This document shows positions 14,963 to 21,150 of a stretch of DNA of 25,925 nucleotides, piece after piece; within the stretch, counting starts at the first letter, position 1; each line of letters opens with the position of its first letter. This DNA is from a virus. The stretch is taken from IMG/VR virus record IMGVR_UViG_3300032316_000084, positions 1 to 25,925 of that record; one strand, 5' to 3'. Position numbers and translations under genes: made by a program. The notes below the pieces were generated by a model that was not told the origin of the DNA, ran no database searches, and was given only the letters and a program-made list of their open reading frames with translations.

Positions 14963-15436
14963 TTATGGTGCATTGTGAATAATTGCAAAGTTAAGTACGA
15001 TAGCTTCTGATAAAGAACCACCGCTAACGTTACGTAATGTTACTACTGCAGAACCTGCAGTTAAGCTATCAATCCAAGCATTGTAGGTGTTTGCTGTTGC
15101 TTGACCGCCACCAATGTTAAGAATAATAGTGTCTTTTGCGCTAATTATAGTGTTGTTTAATGTAAATGAAACGCTAGTATTGGCGTTCAATGCTGCATTG
15201 TTCATTGTAATTTGACCTGCAGATTTATTTAACGTTACTGCTGTTGATTTGCCAGAAGTGGCGGCTTGCGTAGCTGAACCTTGTGCGTCTGCTGAATAAC
15301 CAATTTCTAGTGCAGAATACACAGTCGTACCTATGATAGTGCTAGGTGTTGTTGCGCCAATTGGCGAATTATTAATTGTAGCGCCTGATAGCTCAGGGTC
15401 TGAATAGGCTACGCCTACTGGTTTGGTATTTGGCAT
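14963..15436 (-). CDS. probable virion-associated (head decoration-type) protein
   Basis: A 157-residue protein. Residues 1-45 include KPVGVAYSDPELSGATINNS and the next stretch IGATTPSTIIGTTVYSALEI. The rest (about 55-157) is a beta-rich domain (STAVTLNKSAGQITMNNAAL ... IILNIGGGQATANTYNAWI ... VTLRNVSGGSLSEAIVLNFAI), a pattern often found in capsid-associated and fibre domains of aquatic phages. It lies two genes downstream of coat, with a strong AAAGGAA site, and is bracketed by UUCG hairpins. The context suggests abundant production together with coat, but no biochemical role can be read from the sequence. Confidence 0.6.
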   Translation of the reverse strand: MPNTKPVGVAYSDPELSGATINNSPIGATTPSTIIGTTVYSALEIGYSADAQGSATQAATSGKSTAVTLNKSAGQITMNNAALNANTSVSFTLNNTIISAKDTIILNIGGGQATANTYNAWIDSLTAGSAVVTLRNVSGGSLSEAIVLNFAIIHNAP

Positions 15437-15957: not shown

Positions 15958-17160
15958 CTAACCCCAGATACGGGTAGCCATTTGTGGACGAATTGTAGCA
16001 AAGCCATATAGAACGTCAATACGGCAAGGCAAACGATCGTTGTTAATGTCATATTGACGAACAACACGTAGTGAGATGCCATTGTGTACTTGACGTGAAG
16101 CCATGTCTACGCCTTGTGGTAACAACAAGTCAGCAGTTGCAAAAGTGATTGCATCTTTATGGTAAACCAAGTTTTGTGCGTATTGTGTTGAAGCTGCACC
16201 GAACATAGTTACTACAGCGCCTGCTACAGGGAAACTGTCTACAGTTGCCAATGCGTTGTTAGGAGTATAGATTGCTGGTGAAACAGAAACTGTTGTTGTT
16301 GAAGAACCTGTTGCAGCAGCAGTTACTGTAAATTGTTGCAATGAACCAGTTGTTTCACGTGTTTGTGGGTTAACTGCATAAACGTTAGCGATTGTAAAGA
16401 TGTCGCCTACGTTCCATGTTTTGCTTGAACCTGTGAAGCTCAAACCGATAGAGCTTGTACCTTCAGCAGTAATTGTTGAAGTAACTGTGATTGCTGTACC
16501 CCATGCACCAGTAGTATGTTGTTTGATTGATTGAGACATGTTAACTTCTTCGAAGCCCAATACGCCCATACCCATCATACCGTTTTTGAATTGACGTGAA
16601 ACTGTGTCAGTTGGGTTAAACAAACCTTTCATACCTTCAACCAAGCCAGCGTTAGCAGCAGGGTTAACAGTAGCGTAACGTGGTGACATTACAGCAGCAC
16701 CTTCGTTTAGTTTTTGTTGAGCTTGCAACAATACCAATGAAGTTGATGGTGTAGTACCTGGTGTACCTACTGAGTTGTAGATTGCTTTGTATGCGTTTGC
16801 AACGTCAGCATCAACGCTAGAAGCCAATTGTGAAATACGTGGTTTCAATACACGTTCTGCAAAGTCATCTAATTGCATAGTTAATTCAGCTGATGTGAAG
16901 TTAACGCCAATGTGTTTTTGTTGTGCAACAGTCAATGTTGTGAACTGTTCGTTGTCGTCTTGAACTTGTAGAGCTGCACCGTCAGTTACTAAAGCGCGAT
17001 CTGGTAAACGGATACGCAATGTAGAACCAATTTTAGCGCCTTCTACGGCAAAAGAATCATCGTACTGACGATTCACGTTACGTGTGATCACAAGGTTGTT
17101 CTCTAGGATTTCTAAAGCTTTACGAGTGATCATATCAATGGTTAAAATTGAATTTGACAT
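15958..17160 (-). CDS. major capsid (coat) protein, P22 gp5-like
   Basis: A 400-residue protein with the P22-type coat start (SILTIDMITRKALEILENNL, VITRNVNRQYDD), then GAKIGSTLRIRLPDRALVTD, FTSAELTMQLDDFAERVLKP, and a C-terminal VRQYDINNDRLPCRIDVLYG. This matches the HK97-fold coat family of P22-like phages. It is slightly shorter than P22 gp5 (430 residues). Residues about 220-320 are a beta-rich insertion with TSTITAEGTSSIGLSFTG, in roughly the place where P22 coat carries its inserted domain. It directly follows scaffold, has a strong AAGGAA leader, and is followed by a UUCG hairpin. It builds the icosahedral shell around scaffold. The family call is confident. Confidence 0.88.
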   Translation of the reverse strand: MSNSILTIDMITRKALEILENNLVITRNVNRQYDDSFAVEGAKIGSTLRIRLPDRALVTDGAALQVQDDNEQFTTLTVAQQKHIGVNFTSAELTMQLDDFAERVLKPRISQLASSVDADVANAYKAIYNSVGTPGTTPSTSLVLLQAQQKLNEGAAVMSPRYATVNPAANAGLVEGMKGLFNPTDTVSRQFKNGMMGMGVLGFEEVNMSQSIKQHTTGAWGTAITVTSTITAEGTSSIGLSFTGSSKTWNVGDIFTIANVYAVNPQTRETTGSLQQFTVTAAATGSSTTTVSVSPAIYTPNNALATVDSFPVAGAVVTMFGAASTQYAQNLVYHKDAITFATADLLLPQGVDMASRQVHNGISLRVVRQYDINNDRLPCRIDVLYGFATIRPQMATRIWG

Positions 17161-18520: not shown

Positions 18521-18826
18521 CTATGCGTAGTAGCTGATATTAATTTTAGCACTAGCTGTTTGCTCAATAAATTTGATCTTAGTCAAATCACCATCGTACT
18601 GTAATGTAACGCCTACTGCTAGTGGCATGCCTACAGATGCAGTAGGGTTGACATCATCATCGCGCCAACGGACAGCTTGGCCTTCTGGCGTAATCAATGC
18701 AATAGAAGGTCTGCAATTAAGCCCGTTTAGGTCAACGTAAGGAACTGTCAGTCCTGTAGCTGTACTAAGTGCTGTAATTTGCTGATACCCTAGACGTGTG
18801 GTAATAGCTTTTAAGTTAACTGACAT
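18521..18826 (-). CDS. unknown 101-aa beta-rich virion-type protein
   Basis: A 101-residue protein with short strands throughout (KAITTRLGYQQITALSTATG, PSIALITPEGQAVRWRDDDV, GMPLAVGVTLQYDGDLTKIK, KINISYYA). Small proteins with a QAVRWRDD and VGMPL pattern occur beside capsid genes in related phages and are thought to be structural. Its ATG directly abuts the TAA of a 38-aa gene, whose last codons supply the AGGAG ribosome binding site, so the two are coupled. The function is unknown; a head-surface or portal-vertex role would be inference only. Confidence 0.6.
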   Translation of the reverse strand: MSVNLKAITTRLGYQQITALSTATGLTVPYVDLNGLNCRPSIALITPEGQAVRWRDDDVNPTASVGMPLAVGVTLQYDGDLTKIKFIEQTASAKINISYYA

Positions 18827-18943
18827 TTAAATTCTCCTACGTTGTGTAAATGATCGAATCTCGATCAATAATTGTTGACCTGCGGTAATAATACTCCCAA
18901 AAAACCCACCTGCAAAGAACGCACCCCCAAAAAAGTTACCCAT
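18827..18943 (-). CDS. 38-aa Phe/Gly-repeat microprotein
   Basis: ATG at 18941-18943 overlaps the TAA of the 71-aa gene (TAATG) and has AGAGG 7 bases upstream. The stop TAA directly precedes the ATG of the 101-aa gene. The product has three FF-G repeats in a row (NFFGGAFFAGGFFGS), then a hydrophobic stretch (IITAGQQLLIEI) and a basic tail (TQRRRI). Together they could form one glycine-zipper-like membrane helix. No family is recognised. The exact stop-start joins on both sides and a good ribosome binding site are strong signs of a real coding gene. It might be a membrane-active small virion protein or mainly a coupling leader. Confidence 0.65.
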   Translation of the reverse strand: MGNFFGGAFFAGGFFGSIITAGQQLLIEIRSFTQRRRI

Positions 18944-19158
18944 TACGCATCCTCTGATGCTAGTTGTAGTGGAGTTAAGTCCTCATCTGTCCAAAAGTCT
19001 TTAGCAAGCATAATGACAAGGTGTTCTTTGTTACGCTTTAAGCAATCAGTCCAATCTTCGTCAGTCATCCACTCAGGCTTGCCACCATTAATAAGATTTA
19101 CTGAATCCATTGCTGCTTTGTAATGTTGTGCGATTTGTTCTACTGTTTCTTCAATCAT
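18943..19158 (-). CDS. unknown 71-aa acidic protein
   Basis: A 71-residue acidic protein: a helix (EETVEQIAQHYKAAMDSVNL), then INGGKPEWMTDEDWTDCLKR, then NKEHLVIMLAKDFWTDEDLT. The tryptophan-rich WMTDEDWxxCxxRN ... KDFWTDEDLTP pattern appears in small proteins of many phages near capsid genes, but I know no assigned role. A good AAGGAGA site lies before the ATG. Its stop overlaps the 38-aa gene start (TAATG). It follows the large fibre gene with a 16-base gap. Confidence 0.6.
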   Translation of the reverse strand: MIEETVEQIAQHYKAAMDSVNLINGGKPEWMTDEDWTDCLKRNKEHLVIMLAKDFWTDEDLTPLQLASEDA

Positions 19159-19174: not shown

Positions 19175-20791
19175 TTAACCTACGTTCCAAGCTGACCCTG
19201 TTGAATATACTGGAACTGGAACTGCGCCACTTCCAACTACTGCCATTCCAAATACAGGGGTTGTAGCATCCGTTACAAAAGCCCTTGCACCTACACCTAC
19301 AGTTGAAGCAGATGGAAGTGTTGCTACTGTATAAGTAGTAGATTGAATTACACCAAATACTTTTGTTATTGTTGTAGCAGTTTTTCCAATTACTGTAGTG
19401 TTAGAACCTAGACCTTGTGCGCCTTGACCAATGACAATAGCATTAGTTTCATTATCTGCTACACCTAAACAAGATGACCCAATGTACACACCGTTGGATG
19501 GGTCAAACATACCACCGCCACCAGTTTTTATAGCCCCAGCACTTTTACCTATACCAACATTGTTAGAACCTGTATATGTAAATCTTAATGCTTGTCCACC
19601 AATCCCAGTATTAAAACTACCAGTAGTGTTGCTTTCTAATGCTGAAGTGCCATTTGCAATATTTTCAGTACCAGTAGTAATGCCAGCCAAAGCATTGCCA
19701 CCCAATGCCATGTTATATGTGCCAGAAGTTAAACTTCCCATCGTGCCAACATAACTAACACCGATATTACCAATACCAGTTGTTGAAGCATTGGTTAAAG
19801 CAGCTTGCCCTACAGCAAGATTGTTAGAGATATTAGCTGCACCTTTACCTACCTTAACCCCATTAAATGTTGCATCTTTTGGGGTAGTAACATTACCATT
19901 AAGTGTTGTAGTGCTTGTTCCTGCTGTAGAGCCAATAGCAATGTTGGTCGTTGAACCTGCTACTCCATTTGTGCCAATATTGACTGTTTTAGTTGAACCT
20001 GATGCTGTTGCCCCAGTACCCATATTGACTGCTTGTGTAACTGTGCTTCTACCAAAAACAATTCCACCTGTACCACTTGCCCCACCAATTGCTAGTGTGC
20101 CTGATGTTTGATTTGTAGCAATGTTTTGATTGGCAGTTGTGCCGTTACCGCCAACATTTAATGCCCCGTAAATATATGAATTTGATGTAGAATTGTTACC
20201 AAATGTTGTTGTGTTTGAACCTAATCCTACTGCGTTATAGCCAATTGCAATTTCCTCAGTAACAGACGGACCACTAGAAGATGCGTTATATCCAATATAT
20301 ACATTTCTATAGCCTGTATCAAAACCATCCCCAGCACTACTTCCAATAACAACATTTTCATACCCAGATGTGACTAATTTTGCAGCATCATACCCAATAG
20401 CAATATTGTTTGAACCAAAGATTGCAGTTGAAAGCGCATTTGTACCAATGGCAATACTCAAAGCATCATACGCACCACTTATGGGAACAGAATTACTAAC
20501 TAAAATACCACTATAGAAAATTGCATCACTAGCAGTTAGACTACCACAACCTAGACTACCACTAAAACTTGCGGAATCTCCGTTTAAAACACCAGTAACT
20601 GTAACATCGCTAGAAAATGTTGGGTTAGTATCTAATACAACACTACCTGTGCCTGTAGATGTAGTTGTATTTGTACCCCCATTGGCTACAGGCAATACGC
20701 CTGACAAGGTGTGATCCGCGTCCCATGCTGTAGCGCCTGTAGCACTAAAAGTGCCGTCTGCAAGTGTAGAATGTTTAACGGTTACGGTCAT
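19175..20791 (-). CDS. large tail fibre with two YadA-head-like repeat blocks
   Basis: A 538-residue protein. The N-terminal part (about 1-60) has HSTLADGTFSATGATAWDAD and VLPVANGGTNTTTSTGTGSV, frequent in phage fibres. Residues about 112-211 and 321-482 hold repeats spaced 14-24 residues (NNIAIGYDA, ENVVIGSSA, RNVYIGYNA, ... NMALGGNA, NVGIGKSA) that resemble the left-handed beta-roll head repeats of YadA-type adhesins. Both blocks end in GLGSNTT. The C-terminus (FVTDATTPVFGMAVVG ... VPVYSTGSAWNVG) is a terminal module with no peptidase or chaperone motif visible. It lies between portal-side and scaffold genes, unusual for a fibre. It is coupled by ATGA to the gene before it. It likely forms a trimer that binds host surface. 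Confidence 0.75.
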   Translation of the reverse strand: MTVTVKHSTLADGTFSATGATAWDADHTLSGVLPVANGGTNTTTSTGTGSVVLDTNPTFSSDVTVTGVLNGDSASFSGSLGCGSLTASDAIFYSGILVSNSVPISGAYDALSIAIGTNALSTAIFGSNNIAIGYDAAKLVTSGYENVVIGSSAGDGFDTGYRNVYIGYNASSSGPSVTEEIAIGYNAVGLGSNTTTFGNNSTSNSYIYGALNVGGNGTTANQNIATNQTSGTLAIGGASGTGGIVFGRSTVTQAVNMGTGATASGSTKTVNIGTNGVAGSTTNIAIGSTAGTSTTTLNGNVTTPKDATFNGVKVGKGAANISNNLAVGQAALTNASTTGIGNIGVSYVGTMGSLTSGTYNMALGGNALAGITTGTENIANGTSALESNTTGSFNTGIGGQALRFTYTGSNNVGIGKSAGAIKTGGGGMFDPSNGVYIGSSCLGVADNETNAIVIGQGAQGLGSNTTVIGKTATTITKVFGVIQSTTYTVATLPSASTVGVGARAFVTDATTPVFGMAVVGSGAVPVPVYSTGSAWNVG

Positions 20792-21150
20792 GCTAAAAAC
20801 CTTAATTTATATAGTGTTGCTAAGTAAAGCGCTACAATTTCGTCAATCAGATTCTGTATTGCAGTATCTGTTTCATCGCATACTTTATATCTGTCTGCTT
20901 CAATTTCTTCTAATTGATTCTCTAAAAATTGAATTACATTAGTAGTCTTTTTAGCTGTCTGCAAAGTTATTGGTCCCATCAAACCATGTCGGCCTTGATA
21001 GGCTTCAGCAAAGTTATCTGCTAACTCAATAATGTTTTCGTAAAACCTTTGTAGCGCTTTATGCTTTGAATAGCTACGTGTATTAAGATGTACTGAGTGC
21101 GTTACATCTCTTGCTAAAAACAGCATCCCTACAAAATCACAGGCTTTCAT
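20788..21150 (-). CDS. Dps/ferritin-like helical protein (resembles DUF5856)
   Basis: A 120-residue all-helical protein with helices at about 8-24, 30-53, 61-85 and 92-118. The first half (RDVTHSVHLNTRSYSKHKAL, FYENIIELADNFAEAYQGRH) recalls the DUF5856 family of phages, by memory of the pattern. Residues H18, H30, D45 and E49 have the same spacing as the Dps ferroxidase residues (H51, H63, D78, E82 in E. coli Dps); Dps D67 would correspond to Q34, so that residue is missing. The length is shorter than Dps (167). A four-helix bundle near the portal is therefore likely, with possible metal or DNA binding, but iron oxidation is not established. It is coupled by ATGA overlaps on both sides. Confidence 0.6.
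   Translation of the reverse strand: MKACDFVGMLFLARDVTHSVHLNTRSYSKHKALQRFYENIIELADNFAEAYQGRHGLMGPITLQTAKKTTNVIQFLENQLEEIEADRYKVCDETDTAIQNLIDEIVALYLATLYKLRFLA

Follow-up and report, generated by a model that had tools for sequence, protein, structure and literature searches.

The 38-residue FF-G microprotein encoded in the window, i.e., the whole stretch of 25,925 bases analysed here, a virus record with coat, scaffold and spike-like genes, is best explained as the smallest representative of an accessory protein family of phages. In such proteins, an exchangeable body would be carried by a short C-terminal tail that anchors it on the virion, likely through the 101-aa barrel protein encoded immediately downstream, and we give this reading about an even chance. 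Comparison of related loci establishes that the tail is kept as a peptide, and that the bodies differ while the tail and the downstream gene stay together. The suggestion of an earlier note that the microprotein may be a minor virion protein is plausible. The features that the analysis draws on are as follows:

18827–18943, minus strand: gene of the 38-aa FF-G microprotein, stop codon included (translation; in-frame pN/pS)
18951–18955, minus strand: AGAGG, likely ribosome binding site of the 38-aa gene (sequence)
18943–19158, minus strand: 71-aa ORF with a TAATG join to the microprotein gene, not its usual neighbour (ORF list and comparison of loci)
18893–18934, minus strand: FF repeat of period five, residues 4–17, part of the exchangeable body (translation; other bodies stand at other loci)
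18830–18865, minus strand: conserved C-terminal tail IEIRSFTQRRRI, residues 27–38, common to many bodies (codons vary, peptide held)
18833–18838, minus strand: AGGAGA within the final codons, likely ribosome binding site of the 101-aa gene (sequence; codon use in 82 tails)
18521–18826, minus strand: 101-aa gene, predicted small jelly-roll-like barrel in its long-loop form (AlphaFold model, fold matches, family alignment)
15958–17160, minus strand: P22-type coat protein gene (Pfam PF11651, 1.6e-38; PHROG major head protein, 2e-74)
19175–20791, minus strand: 538-aa fibre or spike-like gene in a variable block (PHROG tail spike, 3e-13; virion structural, 1.2e-13)
20788–21150, minus strand: 120-aa DUF5856 gene, upstream border of the variable block (Pfam PF19174, 1.9e-23)

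The frame lies on the minus strand, where translation from 18943 to 18827 gives MGNFFGGAFFAGGFFGSIITAGQQLLIEIRSFTQRRRI followed by the stop codon; the plus strand has no open frame in 18827–18943. The earlier note named no strand, and its description of a 38-codon frame with stop-start joins on both sides is confirmed on the minus strand in all parts. The last A in the TAA of the 71-aa ORF (19158–18943) is also the A of the microprotein's ATG, an AGAGG site precedes this start, and the microprotein's own TAA is followed immediately by the ATG of the 101-aa ORF (18826–18521), the ribosome site of which is encoded in the last codons. The arrangement goes beyond chance, in that 73 distinct FF-G ORFs (that of the window included) end in the same tail; 22 of them have an upstream join of the TAATG type, and 19 an overlap of the ATGA type. 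Since a Shine-Dalgarno-like four-mer precedes just 23 of these 73, coupling rather than an own ribosome site may be the rule for FF-G ORFs.

As judged from its substitution pattern, the 38-codon frame is a gene under protein-level selection. Among 38 distinct 38-codon sequences, including that of the window, pN/pS is 0.38 in frame, and 1.26 and 1.75 in the forward frames +1 and +2, both of which contain stops. The reverse frames give 0.80, 0.46 and 1.44, and the one at 0.46, near the in-frame value, carries 0.84 stops per sequence. Within the gene, the ratio is 0.42 for codons 2–26 and 0.19 for the tail core. The proposal of a conserved, translated microprotein is therefore supported, both by the in-frame ratio and by conservation ahead of the same downstream gene. 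Conservation between the same two genes, as the earlier note had it, holds for the downstream gene but not for the upstream neighbour, which changes between loci. The 38-aa protein has no match up to an E value of 10 in 50,697 named phage records, and neither it nor the 101-aa protein matches any PHROG or Pfam family at E values up to 0.1.

The N-terminal part of the microprotein is built from the units FFGGA, FFAGG and FFGSI. The repeat has a period of five. Of the three tandem FF-G units named in the earlier note, the first two conform to FF-x-G and the third does not; among the 38 distinct 38-codon sequences, the third unit conforms in just 9. A scan with the multi-unit FF-G body returned two loci only, the window itself and a near copy. 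The five-residue period is reminiscent of pentapeptide-repeat proteins, for which the consensus is A(D/N)LXX; the differences are that only three units exist here and that the repeat residues are unlike this consensus. No Pfam pentapeptide-repeat profile matched the 38-aa protein at E values up to 0.1, although its shortness could hide a match.

The tail links the microprotein to a much larger set of proteins. Many kinds of ORF precede the 101-aa gene in the 98 loci inspected, and most of them end in (I/V)(E/K)(I/L)RSFT(E/Q) and a short basic end. Proteins of 38 to 1009 residues, otherwise differing, have these last 12 residues in common at the same place, with the consensus (I/V)(E/K)(I/L)RSFT(E/Q)xRR(F/I). 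All loci together contain 195 tail ORFs, 163 of them distinct, of which 74 are of the FF-G type and 89 of other types. Ungapped identity over the 20 residues preceding the tail divides the 163 into 28 clusters; as several of these resemble one another, the number of unrelated bodies is smaller than 28. The bodies include long repeat-rich and long Gly-rich ones. Ten long tailed proteins matched no PHROG at E values up to 0.001, and Pfam gave only matches below the cut-off, the best being Gly_rich_2 with 24.2 bits against a cut-off of 24.3, and for this reason these bodies are unnamed by family. We also note that several FF-G proteins (L094, L095, L097, L106, L134 and L140) have a variant of the tail into which a repeat is inserted, VEIRTFATSFTQ(S/H)RRLS.

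The core [IL]RSFT[EQ] is constant as a peptide and variable in its codons. In 82 distinct 12-codon tails, Arg4, Phe6 and Thr7 are invariant and use six, two and four codons, respectively, which argues that RSFT is kept by peptide selection; for tail codons 3–8, pN/pS is 0.116, with a pS of 0.75. The basic end follows a different pattern: codon 10 is AGG in 76, and codon 11 is AGA in 78, of the 82 tails, so that a translation signal accounts for part of the basic end. The basic end pointed out in the earlier note is thus present, but its value as a membrane feature is weakened, since two of the Arg codons form the ribosome site of the next gene.

The association between tail and 101-aa gene was followed from three sides. 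The sets selected by the 101-aa gene and by the coat gene each represent the best-scoring 80 of a longer list, and close relatives are consequently over-represented. When loci are selected by the 101-aa gene, a strict tail stands directly upstream in 69 of 80 (best 80 of more), and one (L133) of the other 11 has a near form. When they are selected by the tail, using a pattern scan for a tail-like end followed by AGGAGA that gave at least 120 stretches, the next start is that of a 101-aa homologue in 116 of the 118 sites examined, and the other two lie at a contig edge. Overall, 194 of the 195 tail ORFs precede a 101-aa homologue, and the remaining one is cut by a contig end. When loci are selected by the coat gene (best 80), 62 are without a barrel gene and without a strict tail, many of their contigs being short, and a tail is found in 13 of the 18 that have the barrel gene. 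Among the 34 coat-chosen loci that also have a DUF5856 gene, the tail is scored in 7 of 10 with the barrel gene and in 1 of 24 without it; these 24 probably cover the region, and their single loose match was rejected as an out-of-frame chance match. One (L008) of the three loci with barrel and DUF5856 genes that were scored as tailless has the near form LRSLAERGRF.

The number of tails per genome is about one. Among 28 contigs with lengths of 28 to 51 kb, 22 have a single match to the tail pattern, 2 have two matches and 4 have none; a control pattern gave one match over all 28. The double matches lie near both contig ends and are probably end repeats. Two of the four negative contigs (L094 and L142) have variant tails outside the pattern, and the other two (L127 and L151) have no tail before the barrel gene. 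The tail ORF is directly upstream in 148 distinct combinations, with the next start lying between 1 base ahead of and 2 bases past the end of the stop, and one regular expression detected no natural tail-barrel fusion in 278 loci. Because the tail adjoins the barrel gene, part of their linkage reflects shared history and hitch-hiking. Some loci depart from the common arrangement. In L141 and L143, frame changes seem to have degraded the body and tail immediately before the barrel gene, with AGGAGA kept, and in the long-form loci L118, L119, L125 and L127, and L148 and L152, an ORF of 54 to 59 aa, of two sequence types, replaces the tailed protein.

The 101-aa protein is predicted to be a small jelly-roll-like barrel. 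Its AlphaFold model is all-beta, with a mean pLDDT of 91.6. The best match among solved folds is the PM2 spike protein P1, followed by a gamma-carboxylase domain and cupins with Z-scores of about 6 to 7; the Z-score of 8.0 for P1 has to be read with the tool's own warning that top values between 7 and 8 are common for models lacking a clear match. Foldseek returned no PDB entry for the model at an E value of 0.001 or less, whereas 13 viral models matched at this level, i.e., 12 uncharacterised proteins and one tail fiber protein. A profile of the 101-aa protein matched no solved structure, and in the 50,697 named phage records the protein has weak or partial matches only. A distant relative is the 95-aa protein encoded just after the major head protein gene in siphovirus ctPCi537 (MW202577; profile E value 1.4e-12), which in tblastn matches a 91-aa barrel relative at 5e-7 and has no tail upstream. 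The 91-aa relative itself matches the carbohydrate-binding module 5fu5 weakly (E value 0.058). Barrel homologues are also present at 11 loci in bacterial and archaeal genomes, the nearest two in Betaproteobacteria assemblies and others in Robbsia, Achromobacter, two Rhizobium and Rhodanobacter; metagenome-assembled genomes with such a locus are labelled Ferruginibacter, Bradyrhizobium, Pseudomonadota and Shapirobacteria. As a separate observation, the 157-aa protein encoded at 14963–15436 of the window matches phrog_18251 (4.1e-29), and the protein right after the ctPCi537 barrel relative (L163:7274-7633) matches the same family weakly (0.0094), so that the phrog_18251 gene and the barrel gene may travel together.

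Two forms of the barrel protein differ by eight residues between GYQQ and RWRDD, which the short form lacks. With the 91-aa relative as query, the best 80 of 299 loci comprise 37 of the short form, 40 of the long form and 3 that could not be parsed. None of the 37 short-form loci has a tailed neighbour, and in 35 of them the DUF5856 gene stands directly before the barrel gene. The 40 long-form loci have 30 strict tails and one more visible at a contig edge, 7 near forms (e.g., LRSLTERGRY), and 2 without a tail. Over all loci, a pool that is biased because one set was chosen by the tail, the 249 long-form loci have 225 strict tails, 9 near forms and 15 without a tail directly upstream, and the 46 short-form loci have none, with 7 loci unparsed. 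In a tree of 119 rows calculated with the loop left out, one side of a branch holds 84 tailed, 8 untailed long-form and 1 short-form sequences. The tree has few columns and many open forks, and according to it the association of loop and tail may rest on one ancestral change. Long-form proteins without a tail do exist, as in L028 and L280.

Exchange of a body can be seen directly in one close pair of loci. Upstream, the window and L090 agree at 86%, up to about 60 bases inside the 538-aa gene; downstream, they agree at 91 to 97% from codon 23 of the 38-aa gene on. Between these agreeing flanks, L090 has an ORF of 342 aa that runs in frame into the same tail. A comparison of the window with L082 or L083 finds 97 to 98% agreement over the FF-G gene and the next 2.5 kb, and upstream the agreement stops about 95 bases inside the 538-aa gene; in L082 and L083, an ORF of 66 aa keeps the beginning of that gene, and its rest and the 71-aa gene are missing. 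With respect to descent, tail identity follows the barrel protein to a modest degree more than it follows the body. In pairs with barrel identity of at least 85%, tail identity is 0.87 to 0.97 whatever the body, and in pairs below 75% it drops to roughly 0.70 to 0.72, also where the bodies agree. Over all pairs, which are not independent, the rank correlation of tail identity with barrel identity is a modest 0.27, and that with body identity 0.13.

The variable block upstream has features of its own. The ORF before the FF-G gene often starts like the 538-aa gene, MTVTVKHSTLAD, with relatives MTVSVTHSTPAD, MTIAVTHSTVAD and MPITVNHSTPAD. These upstream ORFs range from 66 to 671 aa (L082, L260, L265, L232, L245, L025 and L252), and form a second modular family with a fixed N-terminus and a variable remainder. 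The DUF5856 gene stands between the portal and fibre genes, and its product matches a PHROG of starvation-inducible regulators (8.9e-26); the counterpart in a named phage record is called DNA binding.

We propose that the tail would serve as a short anchor through which the body is docked to the virion, and that its docking partner would most likely be the 101-aa barrel protein, the long-loop form of which accompanies the tail. The FF-G body could then be a minimal or cap-like substitute for the long bodies, repeat-rich and Gly-rich, that relatives carry, and because the last Arg codons double as the ribosome site of the barrel gene, both proteins may be made in step. In its most complete form, the proposal is that each genome has one plug-in slot that accepts any body, whether as small as an FF-G peptide of 26 residues or as large as a repeat protein of 1000. 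A C-terminal tail of 8 to 12 residues would load this body on the virion by docking on a dedicated jelly-roll adaptor, and adaptor loop and tail would have arisen together from a bare-adaptor ancestor. This full version is offered tentatively, as possible rather than probable. When the 38-aa and 101-aa proteins were modelled as a single read-through chain, the tail remained undocked and without a strand, at a pLDDT of about 50 to 54, a result that concerns one covalent geometry only.

The tail could alternatively anchor on another virion protein, such as coat, portal or fibre, or associate the chains of a multimeric fibre, with the barrel as a mere neighbour. This we consider unlikely. The position of the gene in a structural block near the coat and scaffold genes would suit such an arrangement, as would the lack of docking on the barrel in the fused model. 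However, the 62 coat-chosen loci without a barrel gene, 24 of them with DUF5856, have no real tail, and the tail accompanies one particular form of the barrel, that with the long loop.

A distinctly less likely explanation is that the tail acts in cis, as a nascent peptide that together with the ribosome site sets translation of the barrel gene, in which case the body could be that of any upstream gene. Such an action can be considered because the tail was not seen away from its place in the loci examined, and the direct upstream position in 148 distinct combinations, the roughly single tail per genome and the ribosome site within the last tail codons are in line with it. On the other hand, the barrel gene goes without a tail in all 37 short-form loci and in 15 of the 249 with the long form, and protein-level selection also acts on the FF-G body (codons 2–26, pN/pS 0.42).

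The earlier note also suggested a membrane-active protein, and a membrane-active or lysis-related microprotein would be compatible with the richness in FF-G, the short hydrophobic stretch and the arginine-rich end. Here, the partial role of the basic end as a ribosome site and the location among structural genes speak against it, and membrane activity is unlikely as a general role because the same tail, at the same place, ends long repeat-rich, Gly-rich and other bodies; we regard this explanation as very unlikely. A mere recombination junction kept by DNA homology, with a functionless peptide, is highly improbable and was already disfavoured, since the tail-core DNA varies synonymously with few amino-acid changes (codons 3–8), even if the agreement between the window and L090 starts just before the tail.

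The proposed accessory virion protein with its tail anchor can be compared with known systems. In tailed-phage fibres and decoration proteins, variable parts are exchanged on a fixed anchor. Here, by contrast, what stays fixed is a short tail at the C-terminus, and everything N-terminal to it varies, with bodies as small as about 26 residues. The family belongs with modular accessory phage proteins, a known kind, and has an unusually small fixed part. Among the papers listed for the tail letters, for DUF5856 in phages and for related themes, none was recognised as concerning this family; the letters of a sequence can rarely be searched in text.

The nearest working parallel is found in encapsulin cargo peptides. 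One account describes about 10 C-terminal residues conserved on different cargo proteins, encoded beside the gene of the shell that receives them (PMC7355545). A short conserved C-terminal peptide on different proteins beside the gene of a particle protein is the common feature; unlike in encapsulins, the neighbour is a small jelly-roll-like protein and not a shell, there is about one client per genome, and both binding and loading are putative. Membership in the encapsulin cargo class was excluded, since the neighbour is the 101-aa barrel gene, and the coat further down is of the P22 type. With respect to the barrel, a jelly-roll cement protein of 140 aa, Bbp16 of podophage BPP-1, decorates a head of HK97-like fold, as presented in another study (PMC3863775). 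As a small jelly-roll protein of a podophage, Bbp16 illustrates what kind of protein the 101-aa product may be, although the 101-aa profile search of solved structures found no sequence link between them and the virion location of the 101-aa protein is putative. Bbp16 is absent among the fold matches listed for the 101-aa model, an absence that is uninformative.

For metagenomic podoviruses, these results provide one rule for unannotated genes, small as well as large, of many genomes: it is the tail that is conserved, and not the whole protein. Such families escape annotation that relies on similarity over whole proteins. Should the tail be a docking peptide, these phages would change their accessory proteins with minimal parts, and the tail would, if this is true, represent a short, natural display tag for particles.
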